Source: Candidatus Poseidoniia archaeon
GTDB taxonomy: Archaea; Thermoplasmatota; Poseidoniia; MGIII; CG-Epi1
Reading direction: 5' to 3'
Length of the DNA: 42,502 nt
NCBI GenBank assembly: GCA_029936395.1
Contig: JAPYSW010000006.1
Location: 1-42,502, forward strand
Part shown: positions 13,140 through 26,509 of the stretch, piece after piece
How the letters are laid out: every line of letters starts with the position of its first letter
How positions within the stretch are numbered: position 1 is the stretch's first letter
Notes under the pieces: generated by a model
What the model saw: only the letters and a program-made list of their open reading frames with translations
What the model was told of the DNA's origin: nothing
Database searches by the model: none
Program-made: the position numbers and the translations under genes

Positions 13140-15722
13140 TTAAAGATCTATTTCACCATCAAGACCACAATCTGAACATTTAATTTGCTGTGTTCCTGTG
13201 ATTTTAGGAATATCCATTCTTGAAGAGCACTCTGGACATTCGATAGTCATAGTCTCAGTTACTACTTTCCTTTTAATCACTCTTTTTTGCTTAACTCGTG
13301 AAACTAGAGGAACCACTGAATCCATGGACTTAGAACCTGAGATTGACTTTGGCTTAGATGGGAGTACATAACTAGTATCTTGATTGTCTCGATTCCAAAT
13401 ATATAAGCCAACACTTGCACCTATAATTACAATTAAAGCAAGACCAATCAAAACAGGAGTACTAGCTATTTCAGAAATCGAACCAAGACCCCCCTTTGAT
13501 GACGATTCTGGAGTTACTGAAGAGGTATCTTCAATAATTGTTACAGTGCAAGTATCTCGACTGGTTAGGCCATTATCAGCAGTTACTCTTAGAACTACTA
13601 AAAAATCTGAACTAGGGGGTGTGGAATTATAGGAATGAATAGCAAATACTGAACCTGTTGAATCTACAGAATCAATATCGCCATTAGAACTATCAAAATC
13701 CCATTCATATTTTACTATTTTACCTGAAACAATTGCATTGAAGACTAATTCTTCATTAAGTGTTGCCTCGTCTTTGCATAGTGCGGAAACTGAAGGTGGT
13801 GAAAGGACTTCTATAGTAATAGTTCTAGACTCACTAGTAGCTCCAAAAGAGTCTACAACATGCAAGTACACTTCATATTCACCAATGTCTAAATCTGAAG
13901 TAACTATACTTGCTACATTATCAGAACTTTCATATGATGTTTGTTTATCTACAAACTTTAAGGCGTTTGTAGTCCAAAGATACTGCAAAGAATCTCCATC
14001 AGGATCATCTGCATTGCCTATCAATAAAACACTAGAACCTGCAATAACTGGATTTGGATCCACATGTACATTATTCAATATAGGTACTCCATTAATTCTA
14101 ATATTTATAGTTATATTGGAAGACCAAAAACCAATGTCATTTATTGCTCTAAAAGTTATTTTATGAGAACCACGCTCTAAGGATGAAATCGTAAATAAAG
14201 CTGATTCAGAAATCACGGTTTCATTACCACTAAAATTTGACACCCATTGATAACCCACAACCTCGCTGTCTTCTGAAGCTTCAGAAACTGCTGAACCTAC
14301 AAAATCAATACCAATTCCTTCACTAATTATACAGTTCTCAAAATTTGCACAACCACTTATCGAATCTATCGTAGCTTCTGGAAAATCTCCTACACCAATA
14401 TTTACAAACACAGTACTACTCCATCGACCCTCATCATCTTTAACTTTAAATGTGATGACATGATAACCTGTTGATAAATTAGAAATCGTGAAGTTTGATA
14501 AATTTGATAGATAGCCATCAATACTTGAGTTCCACATATAATCTACAATAAAACCATCTGAATCCAATGCTGAGCCATTCATAGTAATCAGAGTACCTGG
14601 TAAAGCTGTAGTTGGACTTACTGATTCAATTAGGGCGACTGGTGCTTGATTATCTAACTGCTGCTCGTAATATAAATCTAAACCGATAGAAGTACCTACT
14701 AGTATATTTTCACCTCTATATGACATAGATACGCTTGTAATACTGCCAAGTGCAGTCGTCCTCCATACCTCATCCCCATTAGTTACATTAGTCAAAAGCA
14801 AGTTCTTATTTGTTGAACTGGCAACTAAATAGGTAGCTTTACCATTAAAATCAAGCCCACTAATCACTCCTCCAATATCTTTTTCCCAATCTGAAGAATA
14901 AGCACTTAAATTAAGAACTGTAACCAAACCTTGATCAGTCCCAAAAGCATAATAATTTGAATTTGAACTTCCTGATACGCAAGTTACCTTATATGGCAGA
15001 TTAGCGGGTTTAACATACTCCATTTCTATATCTCCATTTGAAGCTGTGAAAATATAAACTTTACCATTTTCAGTACCCACAACTAAATAATTACTATCTT
15101 CAGAAAAATCTAAGTCCATTATCTTTCCATCTAAAGTCCCTGAATAATACCATACATAAGTTGAAGATGAAGTGTTATAAAGATAAACATTTCCATCCTC
15201 TGTTCCTGCAGCAAGATATTCAGAATTCGAAGAAATTGCGACTGAACTCGTAATTTCACTACCTAAATTATCAGACCATATCTTATCGCTTGATGACCTA
15301 GTAAAATAATAAATATTATGATAATCAATTACTCCGATATGGGTTCCATCTGAAGTTATATCTACATCATTAATACTTAAAATGAAATCTGATTTATCCC
15401 ATTCTTTTGTTCCCTCCTTGTAAAGAGTTAATGTTGCATCACTCGCTTCAGCTATAGCTACATATTTTCCACTTGAAGACATATCCATTGAAGTTATACC
15501 TGTACCTACTGTTTTAGTATTATAAGGCGTGGAAGTGTGATTTAACCATAAAGAAACACTTTTCCCATAAGTGGCAGATATGTTTCTGGAATCCTCAGAA
15601 ATTGAAACATCAGTGAAACCATCTTCAGAAGGATATGTCCATAATGGCTCCTTTTCAGCGTTAGCACTAGAAAAACTGAATAATATTGCAACGAATAATA
15701 TAACTAGTGTAAATTTCTTCAT
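13140..15722 (-). CDS. Propeller/PKD surface protein with cytoplasmic zinc ribbon
   Basis: 860 residues. A signal peptide (MKKFTLVILFVAILFSFSSA) leads to a seven-bladed-type beta-propeller (about 25-360) made of WD40-like units: EYLAAGTEDGNVYLYN, NYLVVGTENGKVYIFT, NYYAFGTDQGLVTVLN. Then come about four PKD/Ig-like domains (about 365-740; PVALIESVSPTTALPGTLIT begins the first), a Ser/Pro-rich hinge, and one membrane helix (about 759-778, PVLIGLALIVIIGASVGLYI). The cytosolic tail is basic (RVKQKRVIKRKVV) and ends in a zinc ribbon, IECPECSSRMDIP plus IKCSDCGLDGEIDL. This topology looks like a sensor or adhesin that signals inward, but no effector is known. Gap to bud32 is 58 bases. Confidence 0.85.
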   Translation of the reverse strand: MKKFTLVILFVAILFSFSSANAEKEPLWTYPSEDGFTDVSISEDSRNISATYGKSVSLWLNHTSTPYNTKTVGTGITSMDMSSSGKYVAIAEASDATLTLYKEGTKEWDKSDFILSINDVDITSDGTHIGVIDYHNIYYFTRSSSDKIWSDNLGSEITSSVAISSNSEYLAAGTEDGNVYLYNTSSSTYVWYYSGTLDGKIMDLDFSEDSNYLVVGTENGKVYIFTASNGDIEMEYVKPANLPYKVTCVSGSSNSNYYAFGTDQGLVTVLNLSAYSSDWEKDIGGVISGLDFNGKATYLVASSTNKNLLLTNVTNGDEVWRTTALGSITSVSMSYRGENILVGTSIGLDLYYEQQLDNQAPVALIESVSPTTALPGTLITMNGSALDSDGFIVDYMWNSSIDGYLSNLSNFTISNLSTGYHVITFKVKDDEGRWSSTVFVNIGVGDFPEATIDSISGCANFENCIISEGIGIDFVGSAVSEASEDSEVVGYQWVSNFSGNETVISESALFTISSLERGSHKITFRAINDIGFWSSNITINIRINGVPILNNVHVDPNPVIAGSSVLLIGNADDPDGDSLQYLWTTNALKFVDKQTSYESSDNVASIVTSDLDIGEYEVYLHVVDSFGATSESRTITIEVLSPPSVSALCKDEATLNEELVFNAIVSGKIVKYEWDFDSSNGDIDSVDSTGSVFAIHSYNSTPPSSDFLVVLRVTADNGLTSRDTCTVTIIEDTSSVTPESSSKGGLGSISEIASTPVLIGLALIVIIGASVGLYIWNRDNQDTSYVLPSKPKSISGSKSMDSVVPLVSRVKQKRVIKRKVVTETMTIECPECSSRMDIPKITGTQQIKCSDCGLDGEIDL

Positions 15723-16389: not shown

Positions 16390-17372
16390 GTAACTTCCAC
16401 CATATCGGTTCGATACTTTTGGTCAACCTCATTATCTTTTTCAGTTATATTATAATCGGCACCCATCATTTGAAGACCTAACCATGCAATCATGACTCCG
16501 TTATCAACACAAAGTGCTCGTTCTGGAACAAAACACTTGACTCCACGCTCTTTTGTCATAATATCGGCCATTTCTCTAAGACGGGAATTACAGGCCACAC
16601 CCCCACCTAATACTAATTCTTTTTTCCCAGTATGGGCTAAAGCCCTCTCAGAAACTTCACAAGACATTGCGAATGCAGTCTCTTGAATTGAATACGCTAC
16701 ACTAGCAAGAGAATGCCCTGAATCTAATTTTTGTTTAGCAGCAGTCATTAAACCTGAAAATGCTAAATCCATACCCTTTACAGAATAAGGTAAATCTAAA
16801 AGAACATCACCTTCAGCTATTTTCTCAAGTTTAGGACCTCCTGGGAACCCCATCCCTACCTCTCTAGCAAATTTATCCAAACCATTTCCTATACCTATAT
16901 CTATTGTTTCTCCAAATACTCTGTAACGCCCTGCTGCATAGGCTATTACCTGTGTATTTGCACCTGAAAGATAAAGTAAAACAGGATCCGTTGCACCTTC
17001 AAGAATACCTATTTCTAAATGAGCAACACAATGATTAACACCTAAAAGTGGGATATCATGATAATATGCAAAAGCCCGCGCAGCTGTAGCACCAGTTCTC
17101 AAGCAAGGTCCAAGACCGGGACCTCTTGCATAAGACACAAGAGAGATATCGGTTGGTGTTAATTTCGCCTCTTCAAGAGCTGATTTAAACAAATCAGGTA
17201 ATTTTTCAGAATGATGATTAGCAGCCTCCCTAGGATGTATTCCTCCTTCTTTAGGAACATAAAGCGCTCTCTGATTAGAAAGTATTTTACCTTCAGAAGT
17301 AATCAAACCAACTCCGGCTGTATGTGCCGTAGATTCAATGCCTATTGCAATTTTACTCAAGGTCTTTCTCAT
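16380..17372 (-). CDS. kae1: tRNA N6-threonylcarbamoyladenosine synthase subunit Kae1
   Basis: 330 residues, full length for the Kae1/TsaD/Qri7 family, which transfers threonylcarbamoyl-AMP to A37 of tRNA. Motifs: AIGIESTAHTAGVGLI (N-terminal ASKHA phosphate loop), PREAANHHSEKLP (metal-binding His pair), ARGPGLGPCLRTGATAARA, NHCVAHLEIG, YLSGANTQVIAY, GIGNGLDKFAREVG and LGGGVACNSRLREMA. The ATG at 17372 overlaps the upstream membrane-protein gene by 20 bases; an internal TTG at residue 5 is a possible alternative. Operon order is membrane protein, kae1, bud32. The other KEOPS subunits (Pcc1, Cgi121) are not in the window. Confidence 0.96.
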   Translation of the reverse strand: MRKTLSKIAIGIESTAHTAGVGLITSEGKILSNQRALYVPKEGGIHPREAANHHSEKLPDLFKSALEEAKLTPTDISLVSYARGPGLGPCLRTGATAARAFAYYHDIPLLGVNHCVAHLEIGILEGATDPVLLYLSGANTQVIAYAAGRYRVFGETIDIGIGNGLDKFAREVGMGFPGGPKLEKIAEGDVLLDLPYSVKGMDLAFSGLMTAAKQKLDSGHSLASVAYSIQETAFAMSCEVSERALAHTGKKELVLGGGVACNSRLREMADIMTKERGVKCFVPERALCVDNGVMIAWLGLQMMGADYNITEKDNEVDQKYRTDMVEVTWR

Positions 17373-18861
17373 CGCCTATTTCTTCAGATATCGCAATTTC
17401 TCTCAAATCTTCATCTTCTGAGATAATTTCCTTAGAACTAGACGTAAGTGTTTCTTCTTCCATACCAGTATAGATTATATAACAACATAAACCCATTAAG
17501 ACAAATATAGCTAGTAACGCAGTCCAAGACCCTGAAGATTGGCCCGTTGAATCTGAACTAGATTCAACTTGTAAAAAACGGTACACTGAAATTGTATAAT
17601 CCGTTGAATCTCCAGAGTAATCAATAACAACAACCCTAACCCCGAAAGACATAGGGCCTTCTACAGATGCAGTCCAAGATACATTTGTTCTTTGTGAATC
17701 ATTGGAATTTAATAAAATAACAGTCGTAGAATAACCTAAATTACCATTTATTAAAAGATTTAAATTGATATTATAAAAATTTATATCTGTTGGATTATTA
17801 ACTATGACACTAAAATTAACATTAGACCATTTTGGAGCTTTCTGACCCATTTCTAAAACTTCATTATCTACAAAAATTATTGGATAATCTAAACTAATCA
17901 AAGTATGGTTTAAGTTGAAATTTTGTATTAAGTCTGTATTTTCAAATATCCTGCCTTCCCAAGATTTATCAATATAGCCAAAATAAAGATTGAGATAAAA
18001 TGAAAGTTGGGTAGTATGATTTATTTTCTGACCAAAAGAGTCGATTTCATACTCTTTAGCCCAATTCCAAGTCCCAATCATACGTTCATTTTCCCATTGT
18101 CTTACTTCAAAACCAGAAATAGGAAGTCCAGTAGAATTATCAAATGGTGAAAAAGTAAGCCACCATTCTTGTGTCATTTGTGTACTACAATTATAATAAA
18201 ATATAAACTCTAAATCAGGAGTTGCTCCAATAGACCGTAAACCTTGTGTATAATTCCTAATAGACACACTCGAAGCTTTCAAAGTAGTATTTTCAGAAAA
18301 AATGCCATAATTAATCATATTAAAGCCATCAAGAACTAATCCTGTAATTTCTACATCTCCCTTTACTAGCCAAATCATTCCGTAATAAATTCTTGAATTG
18401 TATATAGAGAGACTACTTTCATTTAAAACTAAAGTATAAGGTGAAATAATAGATTCATTATCTATTCCAGTATTACTACTGACTTCCATTGTGCTAATTG
18501 TTGTATTAAATAAATTTAATTGACCGCCGGGCTTAATCCTTATTTCAGAAGTAGTAAGATCCAATGTTCTGTTAATATTCAAACTACAATTTTCAAATGT
18601 TATTTCACCGTCAATTAGAATATCTCCTTGAACCCAAATCTGATCATCTGTGAAAGTTCGAGTCTCTTCTTCAGCTACAGTTAAATTATCAAATTTATGC
18701 ACTTCAGAAGAGGCATTAAAAGTTAGAAATACAATTGTCAAAAAGAAAAATACAGACACAACACCAAATATGCGCATGCAGTTCCAAAGAAAAGTCCATA
18801 TAAATCCAACCGCCCAGTAATTTAGAGTGATATTTGTTTTAAAGGGAGTCTTATTTGACAT
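17353..18861 (-). CDS. Membrane-anchored beta-helix surface protein
   Basis: 502 residues from the ATG at 18861; the frame extends upstream to an ATG pair at 18903, but that would run into the divergent gene. A hydrophobic N-terminal helix (about 28-50, IFGVVSVFFFLTIVFLTF) acts as signal or anchor. The ectodomain begins with short parallel strands typical of a right-handed beta-helix (WVQGDILIDGEITFENCSLN, then TSEIRIKPGGQLNLFNTTIS) and ends with an Ig-like module around NVNFSVIVNNPTDINFYNIN. A second membrane helix (about 463-482) leads to an acidic cytosolic tail. N-x-S/T sites are numerous. It overlaps kae1 by 20 bases, so a secreted protein is tied to the KEOPS genes, perhaps only by shared transcription. 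Confidence 0.75.
   Translation of the reverse strand: MSNKTPFKTNITLNYWAVGFIWTFLWNCMRIFGVVSVFFFLTIVFLTFNASSEVHKFDNLTVAEEETRTFTDDQIWVQGDILIDGEITFENCSLNINRTLDLTTSEIRIKPGGQLNLFNTTISTMEVSSNTGIDNESIISPYTLVLNESSLSIYNSRIYYGMIWLVKGDVEITGLVLDGFNMINYGIFSENTTLKASSVSIRNYTQGLRSIGATPDLEFIFYYNCSTQMTQEWWLTFSPFDNSTGLPISGFEVRQWENERMIGTWNWAKEYEIDSFGQKINHTTQLSFYLNLYFGYIDKSWEGRIFENTDLIQNFNLNHTLISLDYPIIFVDNEVLEMGQKAPKWSNVNFSVIVNNPTDINFYNINLNLLINGNLGYSTTVILLNSNDSQRTNVSWTASVEGPMSFGVRVVVIDYSGDSTDYTISVYRFLQVESSSDSTGQSSGSWTALLAIFVLMGLCCYIIYTGMEEETLTSSSKEIISEDEDLREIAISEEIGDEKDLE
18834..18843 (+). promoter_or_regulatory. Candidate TATA box inside the opposite gene
   Basis: TTGTTTTAAA lies about 27 bases before the plus start at 18866 and inside the first codons of the minus gene starting at 18861. 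It matches archaeal TATA spacing for a leaderless mRNA. Confidence 0.35.
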
Positions 18862-18865
18862 AATA

Positions 18866-19690
18866 ATGAAACGCCTTTTAGGAGTAATTATTGCGGCCAT
18901 CATTCTTTCACTACCTCTAGCACATAGTGAACTTGATATGTACGTTAGTAATCCTGGTAAAATTCCTGATTTTCATAATTTTAGCACTCCACAACTGGAA
19001 CCAGGACAAAGTGGAAAATTTTCTTTAGACATATTAAATAGATACAATGAAAGTTTAGAAGACATCACTATTATTGCAGAGATTTATCATCGAGCAGATA
19101 TCGATGAATCTGAAGATTTAGATCTAATTCCAAGCTCTGAAAGACCATATATCCAAAATACAGTTTGGAGCTCCAATATAGTTAAAGAAGAGAATAGTCT
19201 TAAAACCACGGATTTTAAAAGTGCCACCTTTGAAATAGAGGTAATTCAATCAAATGAAACTATAACTTTAGAATTTGAAATCATAACTAATGATGATACA
19301 AAAGAAGGAACTTATTTCGTTAGATTCGAGATGGATTTTCGGCATAATGAAACTGAACGCCAAATGCAATCCCGTGGACACTGGAATATGAATGAATGGG
19401 AGGATGCTACCAACAAAAACAACGTTCCTTCGGATTCACCAGGGAATATCAATTTAACTATATTAGACGTAGATGGAATTATACCTGACTCTTCTTTTGG
19501 AGTAAAAAAACCAATACCAAAATGGCCATTGTATGGACTTATTAGCTTAACAATACTTTTTGCTGGTCTTTCTGTAATTTTTTATCTTGAAGAAGAAGGG
19601 AATTATCCTGAATTAAATAAATGGCTTCAAAAGCAAAGGGGCAAACTTAATCAGTTTAGGTTGCGCTTTAAGTACCGAAAACGCAGCTAG
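18866..19690 (+). CDS. Secreted, C-terminally anchored protein with Ig-like domain
   Basis: 274 residues from the ATG at 18866, chosen because it gives a textbook signal peptide (KRLLGVIIAAIILSLPLAHS, cut before ELDM); longer frames to 18827 spoil it. The ectodomain (about 22-215) contains NEW3-like strands (LEPGQSGKFSLDILNRYNES, then TITLEFEIITNDDTKEGTYFV), the same general fold as the repeats of the giant protein at 20801. A membrane helix (about 226-246, PLYGLISLTILFAGLSVIFY) and a basic tail rich in Lys/Arg follow. The last 78 bases overlap the 3' end of the convergent geranylgeranyl reductase gene. The start is only four bases from the divergent minus gene. Function unknown. Confidence 0.75.
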   Translation: MKRLLGVIIAAIILSLPLAHSELDMYVSNPGKIPDFHNFSTPQLEPGQSGKFSLDILNRYNESLEDITIIAEIYHRADIDESEDLDLIPSSERPYIQNTVWSSNIVKEENSLKTTDFKSATFEIEVIQSNETITLEFEIITNDDTKEGTYFVRFEMDFRHNETERQMQSRGHWNMNEWEDATNKNNVPSDSPGNINLTILDVDGIIPDSSFGVKKPIPKWPLYGLISLTILFAGLSVIFYLEEEGNYPELNKWLQKQRGKLNQFRLRFKYRKRS

Positions 19691-20791
19691 AGAGGCATAA
19701 TCCAAATCTCCTGTTTTTTCTATAGCACTCTTAACTTTAGGTTCACCAAGTATTGAAATAATTTCAGCTAATTGATCATCATTAAGACTCAAAAAAGCCC
19801 TCCGTAAATGGTAACCTTTTGATAACTCACCACCAATACGCTCCTTTAATAAATCTTGATAAGGTTTCAAAGTCTTAGAGTCAAAGTTTTCTTTTTCATG
19901 AGCTGCTACAATAACTTCAGATGCCGCATCAGCTGAAATCAAACCTGAATAAATTCCACCACCTGAAGTTGGTTTAGCCATACCTGCGGCATCACCCGTC
20001 AATAGGACGTTATCGGCATAACTAGGCTCCCGAGTCCCAAATGGAATAAGACCACTTACACGATTAATAATTTTAGCACCACCTAATAATTTCGAAGGTG
20101 CTCCTTTGTGGAAATAATCTCTAAAGAAGTTTTTAGGCCGATTTGGCAGGACTGTAGCCATTCCTATACGACCAGTATTTGGACCTGTTGGAATGCCCCA
20201 ACCAAAGAAACGTGGAGCCAATTTAGAACCTACAAACAAGTCAACATGATTATCTATTCCTTGATACCCCTCTACATCTGCGCCAAAGGCCGCTAAAACT
20301 TCTCTTTTACTACTAAGGCCAGCATCTCTAGCAACTCTAGATGCTGGGCCATCTGAGCCAATCAACATCTTAGTTTCAAGCTCTATTTTTCCACTTTTAG
20401 TTTGAATCGTTGCTATTAATCCGTTAGATGATTTTCTATGACCTAGATATCTATGGCTTGATTTTAAATCTGCACCATAATCTGTAGCTTTTTCAGCTAT
20501 TGATCGGTCTAGATCAGGTCTATCAATTACTAACGCTTTAGTCTCATTAGCCTGGAAATTCAAAAATGACTCTTTAGGTCCCCATAATCGAGCACCATTC
20601 ATTTCTTGAGAAACTGGGCGCCTATATCCTAGATACTCAAATGTCCGTGGAGTTATTAATCCGGCACATTGACAAGGTTCTCCAACTATTTCATGCTCTT
20701 CAACTATAGTCGTAGAATAACCGGCCTTGGCTAAATTCCAAGCTGTCCGTGAACCACTTGGTCCAGCCCCGATTACTAATGCATCAAGCAT
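19613..20791 (-). CDS. Geranylgeranyl reductase family FAD-dependent oxidoreductase
   Basis: 392 residues. Members saturate the geranylgeranyl chains of archaeal membrane lipids or related isoprenoids. Seen: LDALVIGAGPSGSRTAWNLA (Rossmann FAD loop), EEHEIVGEPCQCAGLIT (the GGR signature with paired Cys in the substrate tunnel), VIDRPDLDRSIAEKA, MLIGSDGPASRVAR, and DNVLLTGDAAGMAKPTSGGGIYSGL (FAD ribityl site). These are diagnostic of the family, and the nearby lipid genes support the role. It starts 9 bases after the stop of the 1902-residue surface protein, so both may share an mRNA. The exact substrate (archaetidyl lipid, menaquinone or other) cannot be settled from sequence. Confidence 0.92.
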   Translation of the reverse strand: MLDALVIGAGPSGSRTAWNLAKAGYSTTIVEEHEIVGEPCQCAGLITPRTFEYLGYRRPVSQEMNGARLWGPKESFLNFQANETKALVIDRPDLDRSIAEKATDYGADLKSSHRYLGHRKSSNGLIATIQTKSGKIELETKMLIGSDGPASRVARDAGLSSKREVLAAFGADVEGYQGIDNHVDLFVGSKLAPRFFGWGIPTGPNTGRIGMATVLPNRPKNFFRDYFHKGAPSKLLGGAKIINRVSGLIPFGTREPSYADNVLLTGDAAGMAKPTSGGGIYSGLISADAASEVIVAAHEKENFDSKTLKPYQDLLKERIGGELSKGYHLRRAFLSLNDDQLAEIISILGEPKVKSAIEKTGDLDYASLAAFSVLKAQPKLIKFAPLLLKPFI

Positions 20792-20800
20792 TTACTTAAA

Positions 20801-23800
20801 TCACTCTAGAGGTACTAAGTCTATTTGACAACTATCTGTCAAACCGGCATCTGATAAAGATAAATTAACATCTACTGGTGCTCCATTAAGCATAACTGCA
20901 AAGTTTGCATGTGGTAACCCAAATTTATCTATACAATTCTGTAGCAACTTGTTAACGGGCATATTGGAAGGTACCTTGACATTTGCTGTCTTACCATCTA
21001 CTGAAGATACTATTACAACTCCTATTTTTGAAGGCGCTGCAACTGGAGCTACATCTTCTTCTCCGGCATCATCTGAAGATTCTTTGTCGTCACTAGAAGT
21101 AGGACGTTTACTGCTTCCACGTCTTCTCTTTAATAATGGGACTGCAATCATTGCAAATACCAGTCCAATACCTATCAAGACAGGCCAGAGTAATGGTACT
21201 CCCTTAATCAATTCTCTTTCAGTTAAATCTGAAATGAATTCAATCTCACCTAAAACTGCAGGTAATACTAATATTAAAGTTCCTTGTAATTCATCATTAT
21301 CAGTTCCACCAGAGGTACTCTCATCACAAGAATTACATTGTTTAATTTCAAAATTACCACTACCGGCATCAATAGTATAAGTTAAATCAAGTTCATCTTT
21401 ATTATCTTCTTTAGGAACGGTCCAAGAAAATTTAACTTCACTAGTGTCTCCTTTATTGATAGATTCACCAACTTGGGTAGTTAGTTCGGTACCTGTTCCA
21501 TCTTCAAAAATAACTTGAAGTGGATTAGCACTTATTTCCCAATCAGAATTTCCTATATTTTCTATCGTAACTGTAATTTCAACAATTTCACCAACCTCTG
21601 GATTACGAGGATCCATCGATACTTTCTTTATAATAAAATCAGGTAATATTTCAAACGCTACCTCTGAACCACCTTGTTCAAAAACTCCAGAACGTGGATA
21701 CTCATTATCTGCATAACGTCCTAACTCATCAAACATATGTCCTGTATCAGTTGAAAAACCATCTCCAGCAGTTTCACATTCAAAGATGCTGAAATCATCG
21801 CAAACTGGATTTATCTCAGCTCTGAAAGTAGTCCATTCTTCTTCAATTGCTTTCCAACGGAAACGAACATCTTTTGTGTCTCCTGCATCAATATCAAAAT
21901 TTACATATTCTTTGTTAGTACGGTCCTTTAGAACTTCATTATCTTCACTACTATCTGCAGTAATATAGAGTCTAGCGCCATCAACATCTGCTGCACCGGT
22001 ATTATTTACAGTAACAGTGAATGTTACTATATCGTCTATGTTAGGTACACTACTGGCTGGATTTCCAGCATACTTACTATCAATACGCATGGAATCAATA
22101 ACTAAATCTGGTTTTACACGTAATAATTCTAAATATCGAGCATCATTATTGTTTTCATTAGGTTCCAATATTTCTCCATTGTCATCATTCTCATCAAAAT
22201 CTGCACGAACTTCAACATACCATTCACCACCTTTAATCAACCAATCATCAGATGCGATAGTCTTTTGACTTTGTGATTTAATATTTGTTGTTTTATCATA
22301 CAATGAATAAATCCATGTATTCTCACCTTCATCGAATTCAAAACCAAGCCAATCTTCACTAGTTGCTACTTCATTATCAGTCGGTGCCTGTTTAGGATAG
22401 AAGTAAATCTCAACACGAACAGCATCGGCATCGGCTGAGCCCATATTTTGAACATCGACTAAAATAACTACTGTATCTCCATCTTGAACTTGTGATGAAC
22501 CGCCAACTTCACCATCTATTTTCAAAGATATATCTGATTGTGTGATTATAAGCTCAGGTCTTTGAACTACTACTATCAATGTTATATCCTCACGAGCGTT
22601 AGTATCATCCTCTTCGTCTCTTATAGATATTTTAATTGTATAATTACCTTCATCTGCTGTGTCTGCAACCTCAACAAATACCCAAAGATCATCTAACTCC
22701 CCATCATCTATAGATAAACCAGATGTTGTAGACCAAGTTTGTGTTTTAGAACTGTCCTGCCAAAAAGTAACCGCCCAATCAATTTCAAGTGTAGATATTA
22801 TTTCAGGTATAAATATATCGGGATTAGTTCCAGTATTATCTAATTTAATCTTAAATTTTACACTATTCTGTGAAGAACTCCCCCCATAATCTGGATATAT
22901 TTCTTTGTATTCATCAATAGCTGTTGCAGTCATATCTCTCTTTGGTGCTGCAATATTGATTATTACTGAAGTCGTGCTTTGAGTTTCCTCTTCAACATTT
23001 ATTACAGTGATAGACATTGTATAATTTCCTTCATCTACCTCATCTGCATCTACTTCTGCAATAAACCATAGAGACTTACTTTGACCAGTTTCTAACTCTT
23101 GACCTGACGAAGACCATTTATCATTTGAAGAACCAGGATTACCTGAATTCTTTATAAAGAAATCAGATTCCCACCCAGTTCCAAGAACATTATCTAACTC
23201 AGCTGTAAATTTATCGTCATGTGAACCTGTATTCGTTACAGTAATCTTGAAACGTGCTGTATTCTTTTCCTCATTTCCTAATTCGGGTGATAAAGTAACT
23301 TCCTCTTCACCATTTGCTACTTCAAGTGTAACCAATCTTATTGGATCTCTTACATCTAAAATTGTAGATGCCTGAACTGCAGGTTCTGCACCACTACCTG
23401 CTGATGCTTCAGTTATTATAGTATAATTACCAGCCTCAGAATCAATATCTGGAGTTATACATAGATAAAGGTATTTTGATTCACCTGCACCTATACTGCC
23501 TGAAAAAACACCAGATGAACAACTGGATGAAGTAAATATTGAAACTAGCCACTCATCAGGATAAGATGTAGCTACCGTCTCTATATTCACAACATCATTT
23601 CTATTACCTGTGTTGATTAACTTGAGAGTGAATTTCTCTCTGCGGTCATTAGTAGTATCTTCTGTTGAAGGATAAGTTATAATTGAATCACTGCCAACCA
23701 CTGAAAGACTAGCTCCATAAATTTGACCTATTTCTGTAATTAATGAAGTAATTGCACTTTGAGCTAAATCACCAGAAGACTTTGCCTTAACCTGAAATTC

Positions 23801-26509
23801 ATACTCAGCGGATGAGTCTTCAAGTGCGTTTCTTTCTTGAGCTGATAAATTGTCTAAATCATACTCAGGTAATGTGCACGTTATAGTAATGGTTGCAGTA
23901 GCATCCTTTGCTAATTCAACTTCTGCAGGTTCTGCAGTTACCCAATTAAGATTGTCATCAAGTATAGATATTAAAATTGTATCCGTACCATCTCCTATAT
24001 TCTTTACATCAACATTAAAAATAGCGCTAGAACCTGGAATCTTTTCAATAGCCGTTACATCTGCGTTAATCTCCACCCCTCTGGAAAGCTCAACTTTAAT
24101 AGTTAAAGTTAAGGAATCTTGGGATTTAGTGCCATTTGCACAGGTATCACAATTTGATACACCAGATACATTAACGGCATAATCTCCCTTATTTGTTCCT
24201 TCGGGAACTGTAATTGATAAGCCTACTAAACCAGAAGAATCTTCAATAACATTTAAGAAAGATGTATTAAATTCTAAACCTGTCCAGCCGTCTGGGGCTG
24301 TAGATGATAAAGCAACAATATCGTCACCAGTACCTAAATTATCAACAGTTATAGTAACTAATACAGGAGTCCCAATAATTGCATCAATTGTACTGGATTC
24401 GACTGATAAATCTATCCAATATTCTTGATTAACAATAGTAGTAACGGCTACCGTTGTGTTAACCCATTTAGGTGGATTCTCATCTGAAGCACCCAATGAT
24501 GATGCCGTAATATTTGTAGTAAAAGCTTGGTTTTGTTCACCTGAAGGCACTGTAATTGTTACATTAATTGTCTTCTCCCCACCTGCTGACACTTCTTCAA
24601 CATACTCTGACTCTAGCTGAACTATCCAATTTGCAGGATAATCATTTATTAAAAGTTTGAAAGAATCAGTACCTGTTCCTTTATTTTGTACTCTCATAGG
24701 ATAAATTAATTCCGAACCAGAATCTCCAGATTGAGAAGATACAATTATATCTACTTTGTATTGCTTGTTTACAGAAACCGTTACTGAACTAGTATCATAA
24801 GCTGTGAAAGAATCTTCAGAAGTTCCATTAACTGTTATTACGTTATCGCCAACTACTGCATCTTCATCTATGTTCACAGTCAAATTAACTGTCATACTTT
24901 GACCTTGCTCTAAATCTACATCTTCAACAATTGAACCCCAAGAAGACATCGCTCCTTCAAGAGATAATGTAACTGTATCGTCTGAATTACCTTTATTCTT
25001 TACTGTAATTGAATAGCTTAATGTATCACCTGGATCTCCAGATTGGGTAGTATCACCAGATACAGAAACTGATACTTCATAAACTTGGTTAACATTAAGG
25101 AAAACATCTCTATTCTTAATTGTAGTCGCATCTTCTGATGTTGCTTTAATGGTTACTTTATATCCATTTTGTGCAGTTGTATCTTCAGGAGCTGTAACTC
25201 TTAGAGTAGTCGTTGTATTAGCGCCAGCTGCAAGTGTAAAGGATGATTCTCCTAAAGTACCCCATGTTGAATTAGAACCAGTCAAAGATAATGAAATTTC
25301 ATCTTCACCATTACCTTGATTTTCTATTTTAAGATTATATGTCACTTCAATATCTGGATTGGAAGATTGGGTGTCACCTCCTACAATAGTGATTTTTGGA
25401 TCGAATTTTTGTAATACTGTTGAACGAGAAGTAAAGGTCTTTGAAACTGAAGTATTCTCCTGAGAAGATACTTTAACTTGGATAGTGGCAACAACATCTG
25501 CTGCTGCATTTGAAGGTGCTTTAACAACTAAAACATCGGTCAAATTAATACTTTGACCAACACCAAGACTGCTAACTTCATCATTATCCAATGAAGCTTC
25601 CCAACCATCTGGTATTCCATCAGTAATCACTGTAATATCAAAACTATCTACGGCATTACCCTTATTTGTTACCAAAAATGAATAATAAACCCGTTTGCCA
25701 GATTCAATATCTTGAGCACTTGAACCTACTTTGGTAACTTCAAGAGCAGGTAATTGATTAACCCGAACTGTAACTGAAATTGAATACGAAGTTTCATCAT
25801 CTTCTGAATTCGCAAAGAAATTAATACTCTTTAAGCCAGCTAGTGCTTCAATATCGGGAGTAATACTGAAAGAAACAGTAGAAGACTCATCGGCATCTAA
25901 ACTAATGGATCCAGGTAAAGTAAATGACCAATCATCTGTTCCTGTAGAAGTTTGTGAAAAGGTAATTGTATCCTCAGTATTACCTTTATCATTTATAACA
26001 GTTATCGAAAATGTTGCTGCATTATTTGGATCGACACTGATTTGAGTACTACCTGAAGAAAGTGAAGTTCCATATATTTTTGCTACTTTAGCACTACCTG
26101 CTGCTGTTTCATTATTACTAGACTCACCTGCTGATTGACAGTAAACTGATAATTGCTTGGTAACACCACCTGCTGCATTCGTTCTATTTCCTATTTCAAC
26201 ATATAATGTTACTGTACTTGTAGTATCATCATTTATACTAATCTGAGCTGGAAGAACATACATTGACCATCCAGTAGGTACTGTAGAAGCTATACCTAAA
26301 TGGTAAGTATCATCATTCGTTCCTTGATTTTCTATTGTTACCGTATATGTTAATGTTTCTTCAGGTTCCCCTTCCTGTGTTGAAGGCGATAATGATATTT
26401 GGTGCTTATAATCTACAGCCTCAGCACCACCTGATATCAAAACAAAAAATAAACCGGCCAAGACGAAGGTCAAGGCGATTGCTAGCCAATTGGTTTGGTT
26501 TAAGCTCAT
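20801..26509 (-). CDS. Giant surface protein: NEW3/CARDB repeats, membrane anchor, ubiquitin-like tail
   Basis: 1902 residues. A signal peptide (about 1-32, LAIALTFVLAGLFFVLISGG) is followed by about eleven NEW3-type Ig-like domains of 90-130 residues, each opening like YSITVKNKGNSDDTVTLSL or YTVTIENQGTNDDTYHLGI, then three CARDB-like domains (for example VDVQNMGSADADAVRVEIYF). One membrane helix lies near 1772-1792. The cytosolic tail has a basic stop, an acidic Ser-rich linker, and a 75-residue domain (20804-21028) that resembles ubiquitin-fold YukD/EsaB proteins: IGVVIVSSVDGKTANVKVPS, NMPVNKLLQNCIDKFGLP, FAVMLNGAPVDVNLSLSDAG. It ends in PLE, so it has no Gly-Gly conjugation tail. Probably an S-layer-like or adhesive protein; geranylgeranyl reductase follows after 9 bases. 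Confidence 0.88.
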   Translation of the reverse strand: MSLNQTNWLAIALTFVLAGLFFVLISGGAEAVDYKHQISLSPSTQEGEPEETLTYTVTIENQGTNDDTYHLGIASTVPTGWSMYVLPAQISINDDTTSTVTLYVEIGNRTNAAGGVTKQLSVYCQSAGESSNNETAAGSAKVAKIYGTSLSSGSTQISVDPNNAATFSITVINDKGNTEDTITFSQTSTGTDDWSFTLPGSISLDADESSTVSFSITPDIEALAGLKSINFFANSEDDETSYSISVTVRVNQLPALEVTKVGSSAQDIESGKRVYYSFLVTNKGNAVDSFDITVITDGIPDGWEASLDNDEVSSLGVGQSINLTDVLVVKAPSNAAADVVATIQVKVSSQENTSVSKTFTSRSTVLQKFDPKITIVGGDTQSSNPDIEVTYNLKIENQGNGEDEISLSLTGSNSTWGTLGESSFTLAAGANTTTTLRVTAPEDTTAQNGYKVTIKATSEDATTIKNRDVFLNVNQVYEVSVSVSGDTTQSGDPGDTLSYSITVKNKGNSDDTVTLSLEGAMSSWGSIVEDVDLEQGQSMTVNLTVNIDEDAVVGDNVITVNGTSEDSFTAYDTSSVTVSVNKQYKVDIIVSSQSGDSGSELIYPMRVQNKGTGTDSFKLLINDYPANWIVQLESEYVEEVSAGGEKTINVTITVPSGEQNQAFTTNITASSLGASDENPPKWVNTTVAVTTIVNQEYWIDLSVESSTIDAIIGTPVLVTITVDNLGTGDDIVALSSTAPDGWTGLEFNTSFLNVIEDSSGLVGLSITVPEGTNKGDYAVNVSGVSNCDTCANGTKSQDSLTLTIKVELSRGVEINADVTAIEKIPGSSAIFNVDVKNIGDGTDTILISILDDNLNWVTAEPAEVELAKDATATITITCTLPEYDLDNLSAQERNALEDSSAEYEFQVKAKSSGDLAQSAITSLITEIGQIYGASLSVVGSDSIITYPSTEDTTNDRREKFTLKLINTGNRNDVVNIETVATSYPDEWLVSIFTSSSCSSGVFSGSIGAGESKYLYLCITPDIDSEAGNYTIITEASAGSGAEPAVQASTILDVRDPIRLVTLEVANGEEEVTLSPELGNEEKNTARFKITVTNTGSHDDKFTAELDNVLGTGWESDFFIKNSGNPGSSNDKWSSSGQELETGQSKSLWFIAEVDADEVDEGNYTMSITVINVEEETQSTTSVIINIAAPKRDMTATAIDEYKEIYPDYGGSSSQNSVKFKIKLDNTGTNPDIFIPEIISTLEIDWAVTFWQDSSKTQTWSTTSGLSIDDGELDDLWVFVEVADTADEGNYTIKISIRDEEDDTNAREDITLIVVVQRPELIITQSDISLKIDGEVGGSSQVQDGDTVVILVDVQNMGSADADAVRVEIYFYPKQAPTDNEVATSEDWLGFEFDEGENTWIYSLYDKTTNIKSQSQKTIASDDWLIKGGEWYVEVRADFDENDDNGEILEPNENNNDARYLELLRVKPDLVIDSMRIDSKYAGNPASSVPNIDDIVTFTVTVNNTGAADVDGARLYITADSSEDNEVLKDRTNKEYVNFDIDAGDTKDVRFRWKAIEEEWTTFRAEINPVCDDFSIFECETAGDGFSTDTGHMFDELGRYADNEYPRSGVFEQGGSEVAFEILPDFIIKKVSMDPRNPEVGEIVEITVTIENIGNSDWEISANPLQVIFEDGTGTELTTQVGESINKGDTSEVKFSWTVPKEDNKDELDLTYTIDAGSGNFEIKQCNSCDESTSGGTDNDELQGTLILVLPAVLGEIEFISDLTERELIKGVPLLWPVLIGIGLVFAMIAVPLLKRRRGSSKRPTSSDDKESSDDAGEEDVAPVAAPSKIGVVIVSSVDGKTANVKVPSNMPVNKLLQNCIDKFGLPHANFAVMLNGAPVDVNLSLSDAGLTDSCQIDLVPLE

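Follow-up and report, generated by a model that had tools for sequence, protein, structure and literature searches.

The window, a stretch of 42,502 nucleotides from a Marine Group III archaeon of the class Poseidoniia (contig C67 of a genome of 1.17 Mb that is 92.6% complete), encodes a giant surface protein of 1902 residues, and profile matches together with a predicted structure confirm the C-terminal tail of this protein as a ubiquitin-like (beta-grasp) domain, well above chance. The giant is probably a type I membrane fibre whose non-conjugated tail would serve, like a known membrane-tethered ubiquitin-like domain, as a docking module for a cytosolic partner.

Layout of the giant and fold of its tail

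The gene is an open reading frame at positions 20801..26509 of the minus strand, with orthologues in 19 Marine Group III genomes. Its product reads, on the same strand throughout, as a signal peptide of about residues 1-32 (MSLNQTNWLAIALTFVLAGLFFVLISGGAEA/VD; 26414..26509), an ectodomain of 14 Ig-like repeats of the NEW3, CARDB and DUF11 types (21200..26413), a single C-terminal membrane helix at about residues 1771-1793 (21131..21199), an acidic, poorly conserved linker (residues 1798-1826; 21032..21118), and the ubiquitin-like tail of 76 residues (1827-1902; 20804..21031). The stretch 20804-21193 covers residues 1773-1902, that is, most of the membrane helix, RRR, the linker and the tail. 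The first-pass annotation had placed one C-terminal membrane helix and an acidic linker here, and this layout is correct at those coordinates and agrees with sequence and hydropathy. A hydrophobic helix is also present in the AlphaFold2 model of residues 1640-1902, which is of low confidence (pLDDT 51). Directly after the helix lies KRRR, in accordance with the positive-inside pattern; based on this, the hydropathy and the signal peptide, we infer that the giant is a type I membrane protein and that its tail is cytosolic, as had been proposed for the tail.

The ectodomain carries a net charge of about -189 and matches the Pfam families NPCBM_assoc/NEW3, CARDB, FixG_C and DUF11. The Ig-like repeat motif, sought as a regular expression, recurs at 14 spread positions when two off-pattern matches are excluded, which fits the earlier estimate of about 14 repeats. 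Residues 300-500 (compared with L035) and 600-1000 (compared with L038) are closer to another genus, at 66-75% identity, than to the window's own genus, at 40-65%. In addition, other members of the window's genus lack a repeat that lies near 1045-1180. This mosaic similarity suggests that pieces of the ectodomain were exchanged while the C-terminal part was inherited vertically.

In the tail, the highest-scoring Pfam families are TUG-UBL1 (PF11470; 33.3 bits against a cut-off of 23.3) and Rad60-SLD (PF11976; 28.4 against 23.8), and Rad60-SLD reaches 35.5 bits in the orthologue of genome G015, from a third genus. The ubiquitin profile scores 24.7 bits, just under its cut-off of 25.4, and the YukD profile 17.0 bits, well under its cut-off of 27; no UBX domain was matched by Pfam, the tail being the end of the protein. 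Searches of PDB sequences with the tail return ubiquitins and SUMO, to both of which it is about 20% identical without gaps until the last residues; in a global alignment with ubiquitin the sole gap lies near the end, with z = 7.5 against shuffled sequences. The AlphaFold2 model of the tail, built with 13 family sequences, has the order strand-strand-helix-strand-strand (mean pLDDT 84.5, pTM 0.65). Its best Foldseek matches are ubiquitin and SUMO (probability 1.00, TM 0.82-0.88); the best 50 comprise ubiquitin, SUMO and the Caldiarchaeum ubiquitin, with TM (query) of 0.79-0.88 except for one outlier, and among viral structures the search matched nothing but ubiquitin-like domains from eukaryotic viruses.

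Pfam, AlphaFold2, Foldseek and the ubiquitin alignment thus agree on the beta-grasp fold that was suspected from the letters, and the comparison with ubiquitin-fold structures that had been suggested as a check returned the ubiquitin fold. The finer assignment to the YukD/EsaB kind fails: YukD stays below its cut-off and below TUG-UBL1, Rad60-SLD and ubiquitin, and the best structural matches are ubiquitin and SUMO, to which the tail is closer. Membership of the YukD/EsaB family was rejected on the score, and no type VII secretion gene (FtsK/EssC ATPase, WXG100) was recognised among the genes of the window, ten of which were scanned with Pfam.

Distribution, conservation and other inner-end modules

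The tail was found in 19 of 293 Poseidoniia genomes, all within the window's family: in all 14 genomes of the window's genus and in five of the seven genomes of two other genera. It occurs in none of the 272 Poseidoniia genomes outside the family, so the idea of an orthologue in Marine Group II that shares the tail was rejected, and 390 genomes sampled across the phylum, in part the same as the 293, yielded no tail outside the family either. Long Marine Group II CARDB proteins are weakly similar to the giant; they are non-syntenic and carry other C-terminal domains. The tail and the juxtamembrane region co-occur in the same 19 genomes, so that every genome bearing the protein (19/19) has the tail. 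The remaining two members of the family have neither the tail nor the juxtamembrane region nor the flavoprotein gene described below, and the locus is therefore probably just missing from those assemblies. No second copy was found in the source genome; a weak extra match (G009:C26:25854) lies on the opposite strand inside the giant gene itself and was discarded as noise. Viral carriage was likewise set aside, as no relative was found in viral_contigs.

When relatives are compared in pairs, no other segment of the giant is as well conserved as the tail, with 80-95% identity within the genus and 57-67% across genera, so the conservation in close relatives that had been named as a check is present. 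The linker is only 14-41% identical between relatives and the ectodomain mostly 30-75%, and the membrane helix, unlike the tail, drifts. Codon comparisons of the tail gave pS 0.64 and pN 0.000 (L028/L031), pS 0.66 and pN 0.006 (L028/L032), and pS 0.67 and pN 0.028 (the window and L021). The tail is under very strong purifying selection.

The archaeal NEW3/CARDB surface proteins share with the giant the Ig-repeat ectodomain, the signal peptide and the single C-terminal anchor helix, but in the source genome most of them end a few residues past the helix, where the giant adds a ubiquitin-like domain. Some giants of the source genome bear zinc-ribbon cytosolic tails (L091, L105 and the product of window positions 13140-15722). 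The last of these is an 860-residue WD40 and PKD surface protein with the C-terminal zinc ribbon CPECSSRMDIP...CSDCGLDGEIDL. In Marine Group II, five CARDB giants (L080, L081, L082, L086 and L088) have a conserved cysteine-rich RING/PHD-like domain after the helix, which Prok-RING_1 matches weakly (E 0.011), and three others (L079, L083 and L084) terminate in a different short domain that is also conserved (FPQWDQATIQGYFDQGWDID); neither group is syntenic with the ubiquitin-tailed giant. Judging from these sequences, inner-end modules are a recurrent theme, the ubiquitin-like one being seen only in Marine Group III.

Such variety of small cytosolic ends (zinc ribbons, RING/PHD-like domains) in this and related genomes is what would be expected if the tail were a folding or anchoring cap, which stops the helix from sliding or aids assembly and has no specific partner. 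A cap is nevertheless improbable, since invariance of probably exposed residues across genera and a pN near 0 at a pS of 0.64 are unexpected for such a role, and most giants in the source genome have no tail at all. More broadly, conservation as strong as this could also be explained if the tail served the folding, stability or export of the giant.

Docking and other readings of the tail

In the docking proposal, the fibre of 14 Ig-like domains would project from the cell, anchored by one helix, and the ubiquitin-like domain would sit in the cytosol on the flexible acidic linker. There it would most likely act not as a modifier but as a docking module that stays tethered and binds non-covalently, bringing a protein of the cytosol or of the membrane periphery to the foot of the fibre, much like the cytosolic ubiquitin-like domain of EccD in mycobacterial ESX systems. 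The interaction face would most likely be strand 2 and the main helix, the region that in SUMO receives SUMO-interacting motifs. The invariant residues of the tail cluster in strand 2, the next loop and the helix (DGKTANVKVPSNMPV..LLQNC), which are nearly invariant, and basic residues are kept at tail positions 19 (K), 28 (K/R) and 36 (mostly K), which by alignment we take to correspond to the groove lysines of SUMO. This near-invariance, with the basic residues at groove positions, points to strand 2 and the helix as the putative binding face; both the face and the non-covalent mode of docking are inferred.

The EccD protein of ESX (type VII) secretion systems resembles the giant in tethering a non-conjugated cytosolic ubiquitin-like domain with a contact surface to a membrane protein. 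In EccD3 this domain forms protein contacts (PMC11370616), and a YukD-type domain fused to 12 membrane helices has been described (PMC1779556). The EccD domain, however, is N-terminal on a multi-pass protein of a secretion machine; the tail is C-terminal on a single-pass fibre, and its sequence is not YukD-like. Ubiquitin and SUMO have the same fold (TM about 0.85 at about 20% identity) but differ from the tail in that it lacks a diglycine, is not free and is tethered to the membrane. The top-scoring TUG-UBL1 and Rad60-SLD families share the fold and are also non-conjugated; their proteins, unlike the giant, are eukaryotic and soluble, with UBX or tandem SUMO-like domains, and we know of no surface protein among them. 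A membrane-tethered, non-conjugated ubiquitin-like adaptor of this form is apparently undescribed; the earlier annotation knew of no system with this layout, and none was found in the literature either.

Conjugation was considered as well. The tail ends in PLE throughout the window's genus, as read in the window, and in LEE, AIEE or PKK in other genera; none of the copies has a Gly-Gly end, and conjugation of the tail was rejected on this C-terminus, in line with what the first-pass annotation had expected. A ThiF/E1-family protein is encoded in 14 of the 21 genomes of the family, which could be taken to mean that the tail is a tethered modifier and that this archaeal E1-like enzyme processes or conjugates it. 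This is very improbable, given that the C-terminus is unconserved and without diglycine, that no ThiF/E1-like gene was found in the source genome at its 92.6% completeness, and that archaeal E1-like proteins normally act in sulfur transfer or in the conjugation of SAMP proteins by their diglycine ends.

It is also unlikely, though less so, that the tail serves as a handle for quality control or turnover, delivering the giant to the archaeal Cdc48/proteasome, for example when misfolded, in the manner of eukaryotic integral ubiquitin-like domains. The hydrophobic patch L8-I44-V70 of ubiquitin does align with V11-M47-V73 of the tail, and TUG proteins, whose UBL1 family is the best Pfam match of the tail, act with p97. 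The patch is not kept in genus g2, however, where position 47 is His; the most invariant face lies away from it; and of those CARDB surface proteins of the source genome that were examined, only the giant carries the tail.

A first candidate partner for the docking module is encoded next to the giant. Nine bases downstream lies the gene for an FAD-dependent oxidoreductase of the geranylgeranyl-reductase/lycopene-cyclase-like kind (19613..20791, minus strand), and it directly follows the giant wherever a Marine Group III locus spans the two, whereas its Marine Group II homologue, about 30% identical, is preceded by unrelated genes in the 11 loci examined (L127-L137). Because the adjacency is conserved in Marine Group III and not in these Marine Group II loci, this flavoprotein is the candidate to name first, by position only and with perhaps a slim chance of being the partner. 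The gene order flanking the giant is kept throughout Marine Group III, with DUF655/Rpb4-like genes on one side and a TsaD/Bud32-like pair and the WD40/PKD surface protein on the other.

Ubiquitin domains presumably outside the cell

A family search for SUMO and ubiquitin domains across the class revealed, in five Poseidoniia genomes, surface proteins with near-eukaryotic ubiquitin domains on what is presumed to be their outer side. Three of these genomes are from different Marine Group III species, and in each the domain directly follows the signal peptide of one particular protein, orthologous to a 516-residue membrane-anchored surface protein of the window (17353..18903, minus strand) that itself lacks the domain: G011 (L031, 4507-4725), G006 (L034, 12316-12528) and G004 (L176, 7977-8192, minus strand). 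The gene order around these orthologues is otherwise normal. In Marine Group II, the ubiquitin lies within a pilin-like protein in G150 (L177, 6952-7170) and ahead of the anchor of a 1093-residue surface protein in G565 (L174, 3314-3529). The domain of L031 shows about a dozen differences from eukaryotic ubiquitin over 73 positions, mostly conservative. A further ubiquitin gene, in G113:C59 (L175), is broken into two parts, lies on a contig where eukaryote-like genes are interrupted, and probably represents contamination in a public genome bin. The five domains themselves look like resident genes and not contamination, since all of them lack Gly-Gly, their GC content departs from the local value by no more than about 5 percentage points, and they differ from one another mostly at synonymous sites (pS 0.58-0.92, pN 0.10-0.35). 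They were probably acquired horizontally from eukaryotes, and no description of them in these archaea was found in the literature.

That planktonic Poseidoniia build their cell surface with ubiquitin folds, an old, divergent cytosolic adaptor in all Marine Group III and several more recently acquired near-eukaryotic domains outside, can be proposed only tentatively, and the odds are against it. If true, the giant would work as an adhesion receptor of the outside-in type, with its ubiquitin-like tail doing the signalling, and one externally displayed ubiquitin would be encoded close to it. The presumed extracellular domains raise the separate question of marine archaea capturing eukaryotic ubiquitin. 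As far as we found, ubiquitin-like domains at the inner end of archaeal surface fibres are undescribed. A tail of 76 residues that is extremely conserved in an otherwise fast-changing protein suggests that the cells need a specific cytosolic contact beneath the fibre, and its conservation offers a handle on how these uncultured marine archaea might organise their surface or use it for sensing.
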